From positions 60,795-124,794 of the forward strand of contig JAFEAR010000094.1 in NCBI GenBank assembly GCA_018266335.1: a DNA stretch of 64,000 nucleotides. The letters run 5' to 3'. Positions 32,051 to 46,914 of this stretch are shown one piece after another. The stretch's first letter is position 1. Each line of letters opens with the position of its first letter. The position numbers and the translations under genes were made by a program. Source of the stretch: Bdellovibrionales bacterium. Its GTDB lineage: Bacteria > Bdellovibrionota > UBA2428. The notes under the pieces are model-generated. The model did not search any database and was not told where the DNA came from. It worked only from the letters and a program-made list of their open reading frames with translations.

Positions 32051-33916
32051 TTAATTCGCGGTGCAGAAGCTCTCGGTGCCCGTTGCCGACGTCGTGAGCG
32101 ACTGGGTAACCGTTTGAATTAGGTAGGAACTCGTCGCCGAAGCGTTGTAGCGACGCATGTAAATTTGGAAGGTGGCCGATGCCGACGTAGCGTAAGAGTT
32201 GGGAGCGCGCACAATCCAGCCCAACTCCGACGGATAATAGGTCGAGCTTAATTTTTGGGTAAGGTACGCGCCATTCTGCGCATCGTACCAACGCGAAGCC
32301 GAGTTGCCGGTGTAGAAGTTAACCAAGGAGTCAGAGGATTCTCCCGGTGCCAACCAACCCAAAATTTTCTTGCTGGGCGAAGTCGTCACCGTCTCTACAG
32401 GGGTTGTGCTACCGGAGGGGACCAGGTTCGTAAACCCGCTGATACCCGTGAGCACCACCGTGATATCGAAAATAGATTCCGTGGCGTTTACGTTCACCAT
32501 GTTCGGATAAATGAGCACCACTTCGCACGGGTTCAACTCGGAGTCCGTGTTCGCAAAACCCGTGTCGTTAGGAAAGGGCATGAATCCGAGTTGGCCAAAA
32601 CGCACATCAGGACTGCCCGAAGCAGCAGGCGATAACCCCGTCGCCGACCCAATCGTGCCGGCCGTGACCCCCACCAAAATGGTCGCATTGTTGGCAGACA
32701 TGGAACTCGACTTCAAACCCCGTCCGTCGAGAATCGAAACCAAAGCGGCGCGCACCGTTGCATCGTCGCCGCACCAAGTACCCACATTGCTGTCGTTATC
32801 GCAGCGATCGAGCAGCAAATTCGCGAACTGAAAAAAAGTGACGGTCGTAGAGGCCTGCTGGTAGGCGCGGTAACCCAGTTCCATCATGCGATCGAAAGCC
32901 GTGGTGCTGGAGACCGTGTTGGCCGTGAGTTTAAGACTCGTGCAGCTCGAGGTACAACCGGGCGGCTCCGTTACGGTTTCGCCCGCCAGCACCCGTCGAA
33001 AATCGTTCAGCGCTCCAGAGATCACTCGTCCATCTAGGTGTGCCTGGCGCACGTAGGCATTCGGAAATTTAAGTGTGTTCCGAGTTGATCGCCGGTAAGC
33101 GGCGTTACCCGTGCGATAGTTCGTGGGCAAAAAGGACGGCAGGTTTGCCGAAAGATAAGGAAGAATCGTGTCGTCTTGTGCCACCGCGGCGGCATCGACA
33201 TCGGCAAGGCCCTCGAGAATCGAATCCAAATCGCGGTTGGCAGGGTACACATCCAAAAAAGCAGCCACGGCCGTATTGATCGCCGTGTGATTAAGCGCAT
33301 CCTGCACGGCGTGACCAAACTCGTGGTAAACCGCGTCGGCTTCATCGGCAATGCGGAAGTTGGGCAGCGCGCCCTTGGCATCGTGATACAGCTGAATAGT
33401 TTTTGCGGAGGGATCGTAGTTCGAGGCCGTGACCGATCCACTTTCCATTGCGTAGACCGTGAGGGGCAACACGGCGTTGCCGGTGGCCGCAAAGTTCACA
33501 TCGGTGAACATATTCTTGGCGTGATCCTTCGCCTTCGTTGCGTGGTAGTAGGACATGAGAATTTGAAAATCTGAATTCGTGGTGGGCACATCTAGGCCCG
33601 CCCACTCGTAAAAAGTTGGCGCTTGCTTGCTCGAGGACGATTCGTAGACGGTAATTTCGGAGCTTGCCACCGCCGACTTCAAACCCGTTAGCCCCGAAAA
33701 CACGAGCGAGGTGCGCGGAATGGTGTCTAAGTCCGTGCTGGCCGTGACGGAGGAATTTCCGGAATCAACAATCGGGCTGCGCTTCCACAAGCTCAGCGTC
33801 ATGTTGTCGATGTCAGATTGTTTGCGTGCGGCGGCATCGAAGCTTGTCGACAAATCACTTTGCCCACAGGCCGTAAGCAAAATCGCCAGCATAGACGCAC
33901 GTAGGGCCGATCCCAT
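32051..33916 (-). CDS. Exported lipoprotein with a gluzincin-type metallopeptidase motif
   Basis: 621 residues. The N-terminus has a lipobox (LLTAC, Cys17). The zinc motif is AVYHEFGHAVQDAL (His198, Glu199, His202), and a likely third ligand follows in ILEGLADVDA (Glu235), the HExxH...E arrangement of M4/M36-type peptidases. The C-terminal half contains several beta-rich, Ser/Thr-rich segments and four or more cysteines. Substrate is unknown; an extracellular or surface protease is likely. It lies 77 bases downstream of murE on the same strand. Confidence 0.7.
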   Translation of the reverse strand: MGSALRASMLAILLTACGQSDLSTSFDAAARKQSDIDNMTLSLWKRSPIVDSGNSSVTASTDLDTIPRTSLVFSGLTGLKSAVASSEITVYESSSSKQAPTFYEWAGLDVPTTNSDFQILMSYYHATKAKDHAKNMFTDVNFAATGNAVLPLTVYAMESGSVTASNYDPSAKTIQLYHDAKGALPNFRIADEADAVYHEFGHAVQDALNHTAINTAVAAFLDVYPANRDLDSILEGLADVDAAAVAQDDTILPYLSANLPSFLPTNYRTGNAAYRRSTRNTLKFPNAYVRQAHLDGRVISGALNDFRRVLAGETVTEPPGCTSSCTSLKLTANTVSSTTAFDRMMELGYRAYQQASTTVTFFQFANLLLDRCDNDSNVGTWCGDDATVRAALVSILDGRGLKSSSMSANNATILVGVTAGTIGSATGLSPAASGSPDVRFGQLGFMPFPNDTGFANTDSELNPCEVVLIYPNMVNVNATESIFDITVVLTGISGFTNLVPSGSTTPVETVTTSPSKKILGWLAPGESSDSLVNFYTGNSASRWYDAQNGAYLTQKLSSTYYPSELGWIVRAPNSYATSASATFQIYMRRYNASATSSYLIQTVTQSLTTSATGTESFCTAN

Positions 33917-38842: not shown

Positions 38843-39676
38843 ATGGGAATGAGAATTAACACGAACATGACCTCCGTGAACGCCCAGCGTAACTTGCGTC
38901 TCAACAACGCACAGTTGGGTGGCTCAGCTGAAAAGCTGGCCTCGGGCTCGCGGATCAACAAGTCGGCGGACGACGCTGCAGGTCTCGCAATTAGCGAAAA
39001 CCTGGGCGGTAACATCCGTAGCTTGCAACAATCGGGTCGCAACGCACAGGACGGTATCTCCTTCATTCAGGTCGCTGAAGGCGGCATGAACGAAGTGGGC
39101 AACATGATCATCCGTCTGCGTGAGTTGGGCGTCCAGGCCGCTTCCGACACCGTCGGAGAGAACGAGCGCGGATACCTCGATAAAGAAGCACAACAATTGA
39201 AGCTGGAAGTCGCGCGGATTGCGCAAGGTACCGAATATAACGGCACCAAGCTGCTGAACGGCGAAGGCACTCAGTTGGATTTCCAAATCGGCATCAAGAA
39301 CGACGAATTCTTGGACCGTATCTCCTACAACCCGGGCCAAACGAATATCACGGCCGATGCCTTGGGCATCAGTGATATCGATTTCTCGAAAAAAGAAGGC
39401 GCCCAAGGGGCCCTTAGCAACTTGGACAACGCCCTCGTGGTATTGAACGCCAACCGCGCTAACCTGGGCGCCCTGCAAAACCGCCTGCAGTCGACAATCA
39501 ACAACACCGAAGTGTCCGTGGAGAACTTCACGGCCGCTAAGAGCCGGATTAAAGACGCCGACTTCGGTGCCGTTTCGGCCGACTTGGCTCGCGACACCGT
39601 CAAAACTCAGGCTACGGCCTCGGTTTTGGCCCAAGCGAACAACACGACCGGCATGGCCTTGAAGCTTCTCGGATAA
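38843..39676 (+). CDS. fliC: Flagellin 1
   Basis: 277 residues, made only of the conserved D0 and D1 regions. The N-terminus [18 protein letters not shown], the [19 protein letters not shown] block, [13 protein letters not shown], and the C-terminal [17 protein letters not shown] and [15 protein letters not shown] are all diagnostic. The exposed central D2/D3 domains of longer flagellins are absent. AGGGGAGAG lies just before the ATG. It is about four-fifths identical to flagellin 2 (44236) and has the same length, so the two arose by duplication. It has its own sigma-28-type promoter and terminator. Confidence 0.97.
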
Positions 39677-39759: not shown

Positions 39760-39763
39760 AATA

Positions 39764-39804
39764 GAAGTCCCGGATCTCGTCAGAGATCCGGGACTTCTTG
39801 TTTT
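39764..39804 (+). terminator. Rho-independent terminator of flagellin 1
   Basis: GAAGTCCCGGATCT (39764-39777) pairs perfectly with AGATCCGGGACTTC (39784-39797) around a six-base loop, followed by TTGTTTT. Confidence 0.92.
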
Positions 39805-39852: not shown

Positions 39853-41913
39853 ATGAAGATTTTCAATTCTCGAGCAACATGGATTCTCTTAACCAGTAGC
39901 GCGGCCCTTTTTGCTGCCTGCACCTCGCACGACCACGGAGTCGCAAAGAACGGTGACAACACCGGTCGGACCCCAGCGAGCGCCCTCCTATCCCAACGCG
40001 ATGGTGATTTCGTGGTGGACGGTCCCTTCACCTTTAACGTGCAGGGTATTCGAAATGCTTACAACGCGCCGACGTTTAGGTTCGGCACCTACCAACTCAT
40101 CATGCCGGATGGCAAACCACTTATGAATCCGGATGGGCAAAAGCCGCACATCGTGCGCGATCTGCACTACCGCCTTTACCAAAACGGCAGCGTTCGCGCC
40201 GGCAAACACAACGAATTGCTTCCTCGCCACGTAGTACGCCGCAAGGAAGATTACTTGGGCGCGGGCATTCGTCCCATTCCGGTAACCGATGGTGCCTACA
40301 AGACTCTCGCCGAAGCACCGTCTTCACCAACCGCCGCCAATGCTCAGGGAAAAACCATCAACGTGCGCGGCTCCGAGCTGATGGATAAGTATCTGCGCAG
40401 CGCTTACGGTTACGAAGGCGACGATTTGCAGAATGGTCCCATCTTCGCCCTCATCGCCTACATTCACCCCGAGATGTTCCGCGGTACGTTGTCGGACGCC
40501 ATCGGCGGCGGACTTCGCCTCGAGGGCGGAACCACTCACCTGGGTGCATACATCGGCAACGGCACCACCCGAAACTCTCCGGTTGGGTACCATAACTGGC
40601 ACTGGGAAAACACAGGTTACCCAGCCAACGTGAGCGTGCTCTCGTACCGGGGCGCCAAAACCCAGAAAATCTTTAACACGAACGCGCTCATCGCCTTGAA
40701 GATTCTGAACGAACCCAACAACGGCCCAACTTTTCCGAGCGACTACAAGTTCGATTACTTCCGTTCCATCTCGCTCAAGGAAACGCTGGATTTTTTCCAC
40801 GGCTGGCTAGATCCCGACTGGATTCGCCCCGGCGATACGGTTTCCTTCCTGAAGAAACTCAAGTCGGATAACACCTATGCCACCTACTGCGCTGAACACA
40901 TGACCATCGTCACCAACATTGCTCTCAACGTGGCCCAGAACGAACAGGGCTACAAAGATATCTGGGGTGACGAAGTGGGCACAGCCCTCTGGCAAAAAGC
41001 TCAAAGTCGTTGGAGCGAACGCACTTTCGGTAACGGCACCGAAGGCGGTTACACCATGGCCACGCTCGAAGGCATTCCCTCTGGCGACGCAAACTTCACG
41101 CCGCTGTGGAAGCTCAAAGGTATTCGCACCATCACCCAGAACGGCAAGAACGAAGGCATCATGAAGAACAGCAAGATTACCAAGCTGGGATTCTCCCTTG
41201 CCTGGCCCCCCGAAACTACGCTCGATCTGATGCGTGACTTCGTAGAACAGTACGCGCACTGGAGCTACGTGGGGCCCGTCATGAGCACGAGTGTGGTGGT
41301 TGGCTTCCAAGCCCTCGCGGGCGATCGCATGGGCATGTCCGCCGCGGACTACATGAAGCTCGCGATGCCGGTCATCGTTCCCATGTTCCAGTACCACATG
41401 GCGGCGCAATTGGCCGCAGTTCCGGAAGCGGGCCGCAGTCAGGCCTTCGAAGACATCACCAAAAAATATAGCGAAGGACTGAAGGTTGCACTCGCTCCTA
41501 AACAACCGGGGCAAGCCGACATGTCCGCGCAAGTCATTGACCCCGTCGTCACCGCGCTCCAAGCCAAAAAAGATTGGGCCCTCAAGAAGGCGGCCAGCTA
41601 CACGCAAGACAAGAGCGTGAATGCTCGCATGCAGTGGGCGCGCGATGAATACAAACGCGAAATCACAGACGCCGTAGATGCTGCCCGCCGGGCGCCGATT
41701 GCCGTGCCCATCGACCAACAGTCGAACAAGAAGTACGTGCAGTACTACTCGCCCCCCGCAGTGGTTTACCGTGTAATCAACGGCATCCACGAACACGAAA
41801 ATCAATTCCTGCGCATTTCGACCATCGCCACGGCTATGAATCCGGCCGAGCTTGAATTGCTGCCAGAAGGGACTCCGAACGTGAAGCTCGATCCCACCCA
41901 ATCTGCGGACTAA
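39853..41913 (+). CDS. Large exported lipoprotein of unknown function, first of a tandem pair
   Basis: 686 residues with a lipobox (LFAAC, Cys23). It is closely related over its whole length to the next gene. Two blocks stand out: GGTTHLGAYIGNGTTRNSP (His229) and, about 115 residues later, YATYCAEHMTIVTNIALN (Cys346, His349). An HxGxYxGNG strand followed later by a Cys-x-Glu-His helix is the order seen in circularly permuted NlpC/P60 enzymes (LRAT, YiiX/YaeF), which use that His and Cys. A peptidoglycan or lipid acyl hydrolase or transferase is thus possible. The C-terminal 250 residues show no known domain. It stands between two flagellin genes. Confidence 0.6.
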   Translation: MKIFNSRATWILLTSSAALFAACTSHDHGVAKNGDNTGRTPASALLSQRDGDFVVDGPFTFNVQGIRNAYNAPTFRFGTYQLIMPDGKPLMNPDGQKPHIVRDLHYRLYQNGSVRAGKHNELLPRHVVRRKEDYLGAGIRPIPVTDGAYKTLAEAPSSPTAANAQGKTINVRGSELMDKYLRSAYGYEGDDLQNGPIFALIAYIHPEMFRGTLSDAIGGGLRLEGGTTHLGAYIGNGTTRNSPVGYHNWHWENTGYPANVSVLSYRGAKTQKIFNTNALIALKILNEPNNGPTFPSDYKFDYFRSISLKETLDFFHGWLDPDWIRPGDTVSFLKKLKSDNTYATYCAEHMTIVTNIALNVAQNEQGYKDIWGDEVGTALWQKAQSRWSERTFGNGTEGGYTMATLEGIPSGDANFTPLWKLKGIRTITQNGKNEGIMKNSKITKLGFSLAWPPETTLDLMRDFVEQYAHWSYVGPVMSTSVVVGFQALAGDRMGMSAADYMKLAMPVIVPMFQYHMAAQLAAVPEAGRSQAFEDITKKYSEGLKVALAPKQPGQADMSAQVIDPVVTALQAKKDWALKKAASYTQDKSVNARMQWARDEYKREITDAVDAARRAPIAVPIDQQSNKKYVQYYSPPAVVYRVINGIHEHENQFLRISTIATAMNPAELELLPEGTPNVKLDPTQSAD

Positions 41914-41919
41914 TTGGCG

Positions 41920-43866
41920 ATGCAAAAAATTTCGCGATCGTTACTAAGGTACAGCTCCATCGTCGCCCTCGCGGCGATGGGGTCCCTAGCCTCGGCGAAG
42001 GCTCTCCTCTCCCAGCGGACCGGAGACTTTGTCCTGGACGGACCCTTCACACTGAACCCCAAAGCGGTCGCGGAAATTTATTCGGGATTGCCCGTTTTTC
42101 GTTTCGGCACCTTTGAAATCACGATGCCGGACGACAAGCCGCTCATGGATCCGGATGGAAAAAAGATTCATATCGTTCGCGATCTGCACTACCGACTCTA
42201 TAAATTAGGCACCAAAGAAAAACTCGGCTTTGGTCTGCGCTTTATTCCCGTCGCCGACGGCGCCTACACCACTCTCGATCAAGCCGCGACCACCCAAACG
42301 GCTCCGAACGCCCAGGGCCAACGCGTAACCTTCAAAGGTTCGGAAAAAATGGACGAGTTCCTGCGCCGCGCGTACGGTTACGAGGGCGACGATCTGCAGA
42401 ATGGCCCTATCTACGCCATCCTCGCTTACATGCGACCCAAGGCCTTCCGCGCTAAATTCACCGATCTTCCAAACAATCGCACTTTCCGATTGGAAGGTGG
42501 CATGAACCACATGGGCGTGTACCTGGGGAACGGGACGACTCGCAACTCTCCCGTCGACTATCACAACTGGTCCTGGGAAATCAGCGCTTATCCCGCGCAC
42601 GTCAGCACCGTGGCCTTCAAGGGCGCGGCTTCGCAAAAAATCTTCAACACCAACGCCATCATCACGCTTAAAATTTTGAACGAGCTCAATGGTGGCCCGC
42701 TGTTTCCGAACGAATTCAAATCGGATTTATTCCGCGCCGTAAACCTTAAGGAGACCATGGACTTCTACCATGGCTGGCTCGATCCCCTGTGGGTGCGCCC
42801 CGGCGACACGGGGCCCTACCTGAAGAAATTAAAAATGGACGACAGCTACGCCGTTTACTGCGCCGAGCACGTCACCATCGCCCTGAACGCCGCGCTTAAC
42901 CTGGCGCAAAACGAACAAGGCTACCGCGAAGTCTGGGGCGACGAAGTGGGTTCAGCACTTTGGAAAAAAGCACAGCAACGTTGGAAGACGCGAAATCTAG
43001 GCGGAGGCACCGAGGGTTCACTAGTGCTTTCGTCCCTTGCCGGCATTCCCTCGGGCGATGCCAATTACACTCCACTTTGGAAACTCAAGGGCATCAAGCC
43101 GGTCGTCGTAAACGGCAAACAACAAGGCATTTTGGCCGACGCACGCGCGCAGCAAGTAGGATTCTCTCTCGCGTGGCCGCCCGAAACCACCGCCGACATC
43201 ATTCGCGATTTTGTGTTGCAGTATGCTGACTGGACTTACGTGGGTCCGGTGCTCAGCAGCGCCACCGTCATGGGCTTTATTCCCGTGGCCAAACAACGCA
43301 TGGGGGTAGAGGCACCGGCATTCACCGCGCTCGCCCTTCCCATCATCACTCCTATGTTCCGCTTTCATGCGGCCACTCAACTAGCGGCGCTCCCCGAAGA
43401 TCAACGGGCCGCGACTTTAGACTCCCTCGCCGATAAATATTCACAGGGCCTCGCCGCAGCTAATCTGGACTCGCTCACCTCCGCCGTAGTCGCCGACATC
43501 AAGGCCAACCGTGCGTGGATCCTGGGCCAGGCCAGGACTTATGCTTCCACGGAGGATTTGAACACGCGCATGGCTAACGCGGGGACCGACTACCGCAACA
43601 GCGTGAAGACAGACTTTCTGCGTGCGACCGTCGTGGATCCGAACGGTGCACCTCCGGCCCCCGAACCGGGCGAGACGCCCACTTACTACGTAAAATATTA
43701 CACTCCACCCGCCGTCATTGAACGAATCGTTAACGGCTGGCACGAATCGGAACGACGCTTCGTCAGAATTTCTACGGTCGCCACCGCCATCGAAGCCGAG
43801 AGCGTCGAACCTTTGCCGGACGGACAGAGCTCTACCAGTTACGATCCGACGCAGCCCGTAAACTAA
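41920..43866 (+). CDS. Large exported protein of unknown function, second of a tandem pair
   Basis: 648 residues from the ATG at 41920, six bases after the stop of its paralogue. It has an ordinary signal peptide (SIVALAAMGSLASA) instead of a lipobox, so the two copies probably differ in location: anchored versus soluble. Both key blocks are kept: GGMNHMGVYLGNGTTRNSP (His197) and YAVYCAEHVTIALNAALN (Cys314, His317). Other strongly shared blocks are AYGYEGDDLQNGPI and HGWLDP.WxRPGDT. Conservation of the same motifs in both copies supports a catalytic role under selection. Function not known. Confidence 0.6.
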   Translation: MQKISRSLLRYSSIVALAAMGSLASAKALLSQRTGDFVLDGPFTLNPKAVAEIYSGLPVFRFGTFEITMPDDKPLMDPDGKKIHIVRDLHYRLYKLGTKEKLGFGLRFIPVADGAYTTLDQAATTQTAPNAQGQRVTFKGSEKMDEFLRRAYGYEGDDLQNGPIYAILAYMRPKAFRAKFTDLPNNRTFRLEGGMNHMGVYLGNGTTRNSPVDYHNWSWEISAYPAHVSTVAFKGAASQKIFNTNAIITLKILNELNGGPLFPNEFKSDLFRAVNLKETMDFYHGWLDPLWVRPGDTGPYLKKLKMDDSYAVYCAEHVTIALNAALNLAQNEQGYREVWGDEVGSALWKKAQQRWKTRNLGGGTEGSLVLSSLAGIPSGDANYTPLWKLKGIKPVVVNGKQQGILADARAQQVGFSLAWPPETTADIIRDFVLQYADWTYVGPVLSSATVMGFIPVAKQRMGVEAPAFTALALPIITPMFRFHAATQLAALPEDQRAATLDSLADKYSQGLAAANLDSLTSAVVADIKANRAWILGQARTYASTEDLNTRMANAGTDYRNSVKTDFLRATVVDPNGAPPAPEPGETPTYYVKYYTPPAVIERIVNGWHESERRFVRISTVATAIEAESVEPLPDGQSSTSYDPTQPVN

Positions 43867-44235: not shown

Positions 44236-45069
44236 ATGGGAATGAGAATTAACACCAACATGACGTCTGTGAACGCTCAGCGCAACTTGCGCCTGAACAA
44301 CTCGGCACTGGGTGCTTCGTCCGAGAAGCTCTCGTCCGGTTCACGGATCAACAAGTCCGCCGATGACGCTGCCGGCCTCGCAATCAGCGAGAACCTCAAC
44401 GGTAGCATTCGCAGCTTCCAACAATCGGGTCGTAACGCCCAGGACGGTATCTCGTTCATTCAAGTCGCTGAAGGCGGCATGAACGAAGTTTCCTCCATGG
44501 TGACGCGTCTCCGTGAATTGGGCGTGCAAGCGGCTTCCGACACCATCGGTCAGAACGAACGTGGCTACCTCGATAAAGAAGCTCAACAGCTGAAACTCGA
44601 GATTCAACGTATCGCTCAAGGTACCGAATACAACGGAACCAAGCTGCTCAACGGCGAAGGCGAAAAACTTGATTTCCAAATTGGTATCAAGAACGACGAA
44701 TTCCTCGACCGTATTTCGTATAACCCCGCTGAAACCAACGTCGGAGTCGACGCTTTGGGTCTCTCGGGTATCGATTACACCAGCAAGACCGGCGCTCAAG
44801 AAGCTCTGTCGCAGCTGGATGCATCTTTGATCGTGTTGAACGGCAACCGCGCTAGTCTCGGTGCCTTGCAAAACCGTCTAGTTTCGACGATTGCCAACAC
44901 GGAAGTTGCCGTCGAAAACTTCTCCGCCGCTAAGAGCCGTATCCGCGATGCCGACTTCGGCGAAGTGAGCGCGAACTTGGCTCGTGATACCGTTAAGACC
45001 CAGGCTACGACCTCGATCTTGGCGCAAGCGAACCAGTCCACCGGTATGGCGCTCAAACTTCTTGGTTGA
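44236..45069 (+). CDS. fliC: Flagellin 2
   Basis: 277 residues, with the same D0/D1-only plan as flagellin 1. It shows [18 protein letters not shown] at the N-terminus and SRIRDADFGEVSANLAR and QATTSILAQANQSTG at the C-terminus. Differences from flagellin 1 concentrate in the middle third (residues about 165-205). The gene has an unusually long structured leader with a small upstream ORF, and a strong terminator. Its leader and signals suggest post-transcriptional control not shared with flagellin 3. Confidence 0.97.
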   Translation: MGMRINTNMTSVNAQRNLRLNNSALGASSEKLSSGSRINKSADDAAGLAISENLNGSIRSFQQSGRNAQDGISFIQVAEGGMNEVSSMVTRLRELGVQAASDTIGQNERGYLDKEAQQLKLEIQRIAQGTEYNGTKLLNGEGEKLDFQIGIKNDEFLDRISYNPAETNVGVDALGLSGIDYTSKTGAQEALSQLDASLIVLNGNRASLGALQNRLVSTIANTEVAVENFSAAKSRIRDADFGEVSANLARDTVKTQATTSILAQANQSTGMALKLLG

Positions 45070-45140
45070 TTCGCAACCTAGCAGTTGTTCGGTGCTCTAG
45101 TAGTTGTTGAACGGATGTTGGAAAAATTAGAAATGGGTTG

Positions 45141-45181
45141 AAGCCCCGGGGTTCGGCAGGACCCCGGGGCTTGTTGTTTTT
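45141..45181 (+). terminator. Rho-independent terminator of flagellin 2
   Basis: AAGCCCCGGGGT (45141-45152) pairs with ACCCCGGGGCTT (45161-45172) around a short loop, followed by GTTGTTTTT. Confidence 0.92.
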
Positions 45182-45206
45182 CAAAATGCCTTCTACTCTG
45201 CGTAGC

Positions 45207-45887
45207 ATGAAGCCTTGGTTCGTAGGCCTCCTGGCGTGTCTCTTCCTAGGGGTCCACACCGTCCACGCTGAAGTGGCCCAGTCCGGAAGTTTCTGGCCCA
45301 CCTTAGTGGTGCGCACGCGCGGCACCTGGTCCCTTTATTTAGAAACCCAGGGTCAGTGGCGCTTTGAAGGCACCGGCGGCGATGAACTTCAGATACGCCC
45401 CGGCCTCTTTTACAATGTAGATCCCGACACATCCTTTGCCATTGGATACATGGATGATTTCTCCCACAACCCCAGCTGGAAAATTGTCGAGCGTTTGGCC
45501 TGGGAACAATTCGAAATCCGATGGAACTTTTCTGATTGGTCGCTAACGAACCGTCTAAGGCTAGAAGAGCGCTACATCTTAGCCTCCGACGAATGGCGCT
45601 ATCGCCTGCGCGAGCAACTACGCGTGCTAGTCCCCTTCGATGCAGATTCAGCATGGGCCTTTTCTTTGCCCCTCGAAGTTTTTTTTAGTCTCAATGGCTC
45701 AGCCGACGGCAAACAAAGCAGTGGAATGGATCAGGTGCGAGCCGCGGTCGGATTCCGATACGTCTATTCCCCCGAATTCAATACAGAATTCGACTATTTA
45801 GCTCAGTTAAACTACGCCCCCCCCACAACCCTTACTAGGGTGAATCATGTGGCCCTTGTGACCTTGAACTACACCCTCCCGGAATAA
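45207..45887 (+). CDS. DUF2490-family outer-membrane beta-barrel protein
   Basis: 226 residues from the ATG at 45207, which gives a clean signal peptide (VGLLACLFLGVHTVHA/E). An ATG at 45186 would add seven residues, and longer frames run into the flagellin 2 terminator. The body matches the DUF2490 pattern: WSLYLETQGQWRF, LQIRPGLFYNVDPDTSFAIG, ERLAWEQFEIRW, RLRLEERYI, WRYRLREQLRVLVPF, and PEFNTEFDYLAQLNY, with alternating hydrophobic strands throughout and a final strand NHVALVTLNYTLPE. The family is an outer-membrane barrel with no fixed function. Confidence 0.75.
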   Translation: MKPWFVGLLACLFLGVHTVHAEVAQSGSFWPTLVVRTRGTWSLYLETQGQWRFEGTGGDELQIRPGLFYNVDPDTSFAIGYMDDFSHNPSWKIVERLAWEQFEIRWNFSDWSLTNRLRLEERYILASDEWRYRLREQLRVLVPFDADSAWAFSLPLEVFFSLNGSADGKQSSGMDQVRAAVGFRYVYSPEFNTEFDYLAQLNYAPPTTLTRVNHVALVTLNYTLPE

Positions 45888-45967: not shown

Positions 45968-45994
45968 TAAAGTTATTACGCGCCGTGTCGATAG
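45968..45994 (+). promoter_or_regulatory. Sigma-28-type promoter of flagellin 3
   Basis: TAAAGTTA (45968-45975), 11 bases, GTCGATAG (45987-45994): close to the consensus TAAAGTTT-N11-GCCGATAA in both boxes and exact in spacing. It lies 92 bases before the flagellin ATG. Confidence 0.75.
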
Positions 45995-46086: not shown

Positions 46087-46914
46087 ATGGGATTGAGGAT
46101 TCAAACGAACATTGCGAGCGTAAACGCTCAGCGAAACCTGCGGACCAACTCCGCTGGTTTGGAAAAAGCCATGGAGCGCTTGTCGAGCGGTTACCGCATC
46201 AACAAGTCCATGGACGACGTCGCCGGTCTGGCGATTTCCGAAAACATGCGCGGCGCTCTGAAAGGCCTCGGCCAAGCAGAACGCAACGCCCAGGACGGTA
46301 TCTCGTTCGTGCAGGTGGCTGAAGGTGGCCTGAGCGAAACGTCGAACATCTTGGTGCGTATGCGCGAATTGTCGACGCAAGCTGCGTCGGACACGATTTC
46401 CGACACGGAACGCGGATTCGTAAACGTCGAGGTTCAACAGCTCAAGGCTGAAATGGACCGTATCGCACAAACCACGGAATACTCGGGCACCAAATTGCTG
46501 AACGGAAGCGGCAAAACCCTGGATTTCCAAATCGGTATCCGCGGCGACGAAAACAACGTGATCACCTTCGATGCTGGTGCAGCCGATGCGCAAGCCGGTA
46601 CGCTCAACGTGGACGGCATTAGTGTGGCCGAAAAAGGCGACGCCCGTGACGGCCTCGAAAAACTCGACGGCGCTATCCAAAAGGTAGCCGAAATGCGCGC
46701 CAGCTTCGGTGCCATTCAGAGTCGTATGAGCACCACGGTGAACAACATCGAAGTCTATAAAGAGAACTTGTCCGCAGCTAACAGCCGTATCCGCGATGCA
46801 GACATGGCGGAAGAAGCTGCGAACTTGGCTAAAACGAACGTGCTTCAGCAAGCCGGTACCGCCACGTTGGCACAAGCTAACATGAGCAACAACCTGGCGC
46901 TGAAACTGATCTAA
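46087..46914 (+). CDS. fliC: Flagellin 3
   Basis: 275 residues from the ATG at 46087, with GGGAGG 8 bases upstream. [51 protein letters not shown] and the C-terminal SRIRDADMAEEAANLAK mark it as a flagellin, but it is clearly more distant from flagellins 1 and 2 than they are from each other. It lacks the [13 protein letters not shown] block of the other two. It has the best sigma-28 promoter of the three and a perfect terminator, so it may be the most strongly flagellar-class-controlled filament subunit. Confidence 0.97.
   Translation: MGLRIQTNIASVNAQRNLRTNSAGLEKAMERLSSGYRINKSMDDVAGLAISENMRGALKGLGQAERNAQDGISFVQVAEGGLSETSNILVRMRELSTQAASDTISDTERGFVNVEVQQLKAEMDRIAQTTEYSGTKLLNGSGKTLDFQIGIRGDENNVITFDAGAADAQAGTLNVDGISVAEKGDARDGLEKLDGAIQKVAEMRASFGAIQSRMSTTVNNIEVYKENLSAANSRIRDADMAEEAANLAKTNVLQQAGTATLAQANMSNNLALKLI

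Follow-up and report, generated by a model that had tools for sequence, protein, structure and literature searches.

Among permuted members of the NlpC/P60 and papain-like superfamily, BcPPNE carries its key residues in the order His49, Glu64, Tyr127 and Cys154, the solved structures have a hydrophobic S1 pocket, and a putative fatty acid is bound in YiiX (PMC3142127). Tox-Act1, another permuted member, is a phospholipase (PMC12994826); LnsA is required for lipoprotein N-acylation (PMC7387801), and the permuted PPPDE/DeSI proteins have protein conjugates as substrates (PMC10318531). Here we describe two abutting genes, A and B, from a Bdellovibrionales bacterium (GenBank assembly GCA_018266335.1, contig JAFEAR010000094.1, positions 60,795 to 124,794; this whole stretch of 64,000 nucleotides is called the window). 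An original prediction, made from the sequence alone, had assigned them a permuted NlpC/P60-like signature. On balance we favour the reading that A and B are tandem duplicates from an unnamed family of exported cysteine enzymes, which have a permuted NlpC/P60-like core, work through a thioester acyl-enzyme and have fatty-acyl groups of the envelope as likeliest substrates.

The gene pair and its conserved residues

Positions are those of the window and residue numbers, unless stated otherwise, those of A.

39853..41913, plus strand: gene A, 686 residues, predicted lipoprotein, LFAAC lipobox by eye, Cys23
40369..41052, plus strand: catalytic-core domain of A, residues 173-400, folded alone in structure prediction
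40537..40539, plus strand: A His229, putative catalytic His, on strand 227-233
40573..40575, plus strand: A Asn241, putative third (polar) residue, 12 past His
40744..40746, plus strand: A Tyr298 (FPxDY), candidate superfamily Tyr, putatively catalytic
40888..40890, plus strand: A Cys346, putative nucleophile, at the start of helix 346-359
41920..43866, plus strand: gene B, 648 residues from ATG 41920, predicted signal peptidase I substrate (by eye)
42508..42510, plus strand: B His, residue 199 of the 650-residue reading frame (A/B alignment)
42544..42546, plus strand: B Asn, third-residue position (A/B alignment)
42715..42717, plus strand: B Phe at the Tyr298 position (FPNEF)
42859..42861, plus strand: B Cys, residue 316 of the 650-residue reading frame (A/B alignment)

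Both predicted full-length reading frames were found in place, B having 650 residues if an in-frame TTG at 41914, directly after the stop codon of A, is counted. The protein search returned a near-identical counterpart of A on another public contig (P0001); the match P0003 is the protein of gene B itself, and its start at ATG 41920 is no independent support. Judged by eye, the signal of A ends in the lipobox-like LFAAC and that of B in ASA-KA, which is signal-peptidase-I-like, in agreement with the earlier view that one copy is a lipoprotein and the other secreted. The high overall divergence once attributed to the copies is refuted by 53% identity and 70% similarity across 648 aligned positions, and motif conservation between these two alone therefore says little. 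At residue 288 of A (40714-40716) the window has NEPN, and P0001, copy B and several close relatives have NELN, which is either a strain difference or an error. The tree pairs A with B (support 0.944) and places P0002 next to them (0.962); duplication within this lineage is therefore the probable origin of the pair.

The His-motif reads HLGAYIGNGTTRNSP / HMGVYLGNGTTRNSP in the two copies and the Cys-motif TYCAEH / VYCAEH, with a His-to-Cys spacing of 117 residues in A and in B. The shared blocks and the retention of His and Cys in both copies, as first noticed, are thereby confirmed; the invariance of His229 and Cys346 may be given more weight across the family than between two copies. Our family alignment has 59 rows, made up of the two window proteins, 34 of the 37 protein-search matches and 23 locus proteins, at a median pairwise identity of 32%. 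His229, Gly235, Phe294, Tyr345, Cys346 and Pro635 are present in all 59 rows, followed by Tyr298 (58/59), Asn241 (57/59), Glu348 (57/59) and His349 (52/59). Since His349 is kept in only 52 rows, against all for His229 and Cys346, the last His of YCAEH appears non-essential. The exceptions at position 241 are His in L047 and Ile in the distant L053, and replacement of Asn by His is the polar swap that would be expected of a third catalytic position.

Left out of the alignment were P0001 (almost the same as A), P0003 (gene B) and P0034 (shifted tail); the fragment L068 was dropped ahead of counting, and L005 is the same as P0017. Twelve of the 26 genome-scan loci (L006-L010, L012, L014-L017, L019, L026) and the repeated or cut genes L027-L035, L037-L046, L054-L067 and L071 are likewise not among the rows. 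The 26 loci were found by patterns built from the two motifs themselves, so the genome-scan rows are biased towards motif retention; this bias is much smaller for rows from the word and hidden Markov model protein search and from profile searches. Structure alignment A1 had 37 rows and A2 had 36, P0034 being omitted.

The only family row without Tyr298 is window copy B, which has Phe. This substitution, together with the sister relationship of two abutting genes, could mean that B has ceased to be the same kind of enzyme and acts as A's partner or decoy, a view compatible with the other readings. It is improbable in our judgement, because B retains the His, the Asn, the Cys and most other conserved positions.

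Predicted fold and proposed remote relationship to YiiX

In the predicted structure of A, analysed with DSSP, the His lies on a strand, the polar residue comes next, and the Cys stands at the N-terminus of a later helix. Structure comparison, suggested together with the original prediction, gave YiiX as the best match of the predicted core, by a margin. Cys346 is in register with YiiX Cys128 in this comparison, and Tyr298, 48 residues ahead of the Cys, is one residue off YiiX Tyr115 in the alignment.

A second family, of at least 195 proteins, came to light through two distant rows, L069 and L070. The alignment of this sister family has 121 rows, namely 120 listed of the 195 matches and L069, which is also among the 59 family rows. 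Its profile matches the window family with a probability of 99.1% (E 7e-19, 499 columns), placing His266 over His229 and Cys393 over Cys346. The His, the Tyr of FPxDY, the Tyr-Cys pair and the Glu two past the Cys are each present in 121/121 sister rows, and the Asn in 119/121. Pfam domains in the 40 sister proteins scanned include Somatomedin_B (8), PPC (6) and LTD (2), which we take as modules of extracellular proteins.

Profiles of Peptidase_C92 (PF05708), the family of YiiX, were built from 27 Bdellovibrionota proteins and included a short set. The sister family reaches the short set with a probability of 77% (E 2e-5) and a score of 41.3, the controls giving at most 27.9 in 200 shuffles and 12.1 when reversed; Cys falls on Cys in this match, which spans 34 columns around the Cys and does not cover the His. 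Against the other C92 sets the sister family scored 56%, 9% and 1%, and against E. coli YiiX alone 0.5%. For the window family itself, the C92 comparisons were not significant (probability 0.3 to 2.3%), with the reversed short set marginally above the real one. In its best short-set alignment both the His and the Cys meet their counterparts, an outcome that none of 200 column shuffles reproduced; two other C92 sets align one of the two residues only, and all 27 proteins together miss both motifs.

Some marks of permuted members are missing. The GD motif at strand 1 is absent from the window copies, which read NGPIFALIAY and NGPIYAILAY (family consensus DPIFALIAY); the strand ahead of the His strand, 199-204, is our own assignment on the predicted structure. 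Pfam finds no Peptidase_C92 in the 2 window proteins, 37 family members, 3 distant and 40 sister proteins, and neither PF04970 nor PF13387 in A, B or the 37 members. The permuted NlpC/P60-like reading is partly supported: the His strand and the Cys at the helix start agree with it, YiiX is the best match of the predicted core, and the Pfam match and the GD motif are lacking. A different fold, with the conserved His and Cys kept for metal binding or structure, seems improbable to us, considering that the residues follow the superfamily order His - polar - Tyr - Cys, the Cys opening a helix, that YiiX leads for the core by a margin, and that the sister family forms a bridge to C92. The family assignment rests on this structural and remote-homology argument.

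Comparison with described families and the question of substrate

The window family differs from YiiX/Peptidase_C92 in its length of about 550-800 residues, with extra N- and C-terminal parts, in having Asn and not Glu at the putative third-residue position (57/59), and in the missing Pfam match and GD motif noted above. C92/YiiX-like proteins are themselves common in Bdellovibrionota (34/59 genomes matched, 28 over the cut-off; loci L072-L098), many of them 450-600 residues long and with up to 8 matches per genome. With LRAT/HRASLS (PF04970) the permuted order is common to both, and C-A-E-H of the window proteins resembles C-E-H of LRAT, whose Cys motif is NCEH and whose third residue is His; the window family has no Pfam match to it, and LRAT proteins occur in only 2/58 Myxococcota genomes.

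The core of Lnb/DUF4105 (PF13387), the Bacteroides lipoprotein N-acyltransferase, is permuted too (PMC12994826). Lnb-like Bdellovibrionota proteins have 600-670 residues and show NCxxH at the Cys in the 20 copies aligned, and hhalign detected no relation between Lnb and the window family (probability 0.2-0.3%). Lnb_N (PF13387) is over the cut-off in 64/97 Bdellovibrionota genomes, with up to 6 matches per genome (loci L106-L125). Lnt is over the cut-off in 15/19 genomes with the window family, so there is no general displacement of Lnt; for Bdellovibrionota genomes with the family the figure is 10/11. In G011, the one genome in which both Lnb and Lnt were looked for, both are present. PPPDE/DeSI proteins (PF05903) are likewise permuted papain-like enzymes (PMC10318531); they are ubiquitin or SUMO isopeptidases, and the window family has no Pfam match to them.

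Compared with canonical NlpC/P60 (PF00877), the His and the polar residue are 12 apart, as are His291 and His303 of BcYkfC (PMC3142127), whereas the canonical Cys lies ahead of the His and the window His precedes its Cys. The main rival to our reading keeps the same permuted core and assigns it peptidoglycan, wall peptides of the own or the prey wall being cleaved or remodelled. As third residue, Asn or His is indeed closer to canonical NlpC/P60 than YiiX's Glu; an N-terminal LysM occurs in one member from the Myxococcaceae; and three loci from Myxococcota (L006, L007, L009; Pfam was run on the L007 copy only) have a PG_binding_1 plus NLPC_P60 type of gene no more than about 4 kb away. We nevertheless hold this rival to be rather unlikely, as the S1 pocket is hydrophobic in those permuted members whose structures are solved (PMC3142127), LysM occurs in only 1 of the 37 members scanned, and Pfam found no wall-binding domain in A or B.

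From the sequences, their conservation, the predicted secondary structure with its fold match and the remote relationships, we infer residue roles, chemistry, substrate and localisation of A and B as follows. The permuted core would occupy about residues 190-360 of A, preceded by an N-terminal part rich in beta structure and followed by a long, helical C-terminal region. Because the order His - polar - Tyr - Cys is the permuted NlpC/P60 order, Cys346 at its helix N-terminus would be the nucleophile (as thiolate), His229 on its strand would activate it, Asn241 would orient His229, and Tyr298 would lie near the substrate carbonyl and help to hold it. The reaction would then run through a thioester acyl-enzyme. 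Since lipids are substrates or ligands of several permuted members, acyl groups of envelope phospholipids or lipoproteins are by analogy the likeliest substrate, to be hydrolysed or transferred. A would act anchored to a membrane, and B may act free or, with Phe at the Tyr298 position, with altered activity.

Distribution of the family

A and B match no model of Pfam, NCBIfam or PADLOC, and among the 37 family members scanned with Pfam the LysM mentioned above is the only domain of note. The protein search found at least 37 members at E<=0.001 among 7997 candidates, most of them without an organism name; the three names given are Bacteriovoracaceae, Myxococcota and Myxococcaceae. The 26 genome-scan loci bear mostly titles of Bdellovibrionales/Bacteriovoracaceae, Myxococcota groups, 'Deltaproteobacteria' or 'Proteobacteria', single ones being labelled Qipengyuania, Sphingobacteriales, Aquificaceae and Leucothrix. 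Profile searches detected the family in 12/368 genomes (one distant, L053) of the phylum of G011 (Bdellovibrionaceae), which we take to be Bdellovibrionota, and in 18/195 genomes of the phylum of G005 (Myxococcaceae), two of which (G379, G393) represent the sister family. The distribution is sporadic, and no member was found in the viral contigs, phages and plasmids searched. In four Myxococcota loci (L006, L007, L009, L015) the family gene has a PmbA/TldD-type gene no more than about 2.2 kb away, and in the first three the PG_binding_1 plus NLPC_P60-type gene stands beyond it (Pfam assignments cover the L007 genes).

The original prediction knew of no description of these proteins. Among the titles and abstract starts listed in literature searches on permuted NlpC with YiiX, Bdellovibrio, Myxococcus, LRAT, papain-like proteins and Somatomedin B, none describes the family, an entry in the papain-like classification of PMC10318531 being possible.

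The flagellin neighbourhood

38843..39676, plus strand: flagellin 1, neighbour, not part of the system
39763..39798, plus strand: terminator-like hairpin, 16 pairs, between flagellin 1 and gene A (hairpin scan)
44236..45069, plus strand: flagellin 2, neighbour, with the same relatives' genes as flagellin 1
46087..46914, plus strand: flagellin 3, neighbour, ATG at 46087

The pair does lie in a flagellin island, with flagellins on both sides, as was originally stated. A flagellum-linked role, in filament passage through the wall or in flagellin modification, has this position between flagellins 1 and 2 in its favour and is very improbable. The nearest relatives compared (by FtsI, G376 at 57% and G373 at 54% identity) retain the block rsmH - flagellins - kinase - NtrC - asparaginase, A and B being absent from it. 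Between the corresponding flagellins G376 has nothing but small reading frames, and in G373 a flagellin gap near the A/B place (L139:12337-14301) holds an unrelated reading frame of 654 residues with no Pfam match. The family profile found nothing in G373, G375 and G376, even at E 10. Flagellins 1 and 2 as queries matched nothing in the 26 genome-scan loci, many of whose flanks are short. The hairpin scan gave 15 sites against 12.1 expected in shuffles; the hairpin ahead of A and another at 45141-45172 (14 pairs) stand out, the others having 5 or 6. A sigma-28-like site, with 3 mismatches to the consensus, was seen ahead of flagellin 3 (45968-45994), in a scan whose site count is reached by 5/100 shuffles, and none was seen ahead of gene A.

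Because the relatives' block lacks A/B, flagellins 1 and 2 have no match in the genome-scan loci and a hairpin precedes A, the pair looks like a separate unit inserted into, or lost from, an older flagellin block. Its place between flagellin genes looks accidental, and the cluster of flagellins may act as a site for variable cargo.

Elsewhere in the window, the real start of flagellin 3 is probably ATG 46087 and not GTG 45985, and a DUF2490 protein is encoded at 45138-45887, between flagellins 2 and 3. At 32051-33916, on the minus strand, lies a 621-residue exported protein with a metallopeptidase-like HEFGHAV motif, recognised by eye, and no Pfam match.

Biological meaning

Bdellovibrionota and Myxococcota have many predatory members, and envelope-acting enzymes matter for predation in these phyla. 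We suggest, tentatively and as a possibility still rather doubtful, that the window and sister families make up a branch of their own, so far undescribed, among permuted papain-like enzymes, found mostly in these two phyla and exported as lipoproteins or with adhesion modules, which as acyl hydrolases or transferases would remodel lipids or lipoproteins of the own or the prey envelope. If so, they would represent a so far unrecorded class of enzyme for the envelope or for predation, and their superfamily, most of whose bacterial members have no known function, would gain a branch in which the third residue is Asn. Two groups of 'hypothetical protein' (at least 37 and at least 195 members), unnamed by Pfam and NCBIfam, would thereby gain a testable function, and the pair would offer a natural Tyr/Phe comparison within one tandem duplicate.
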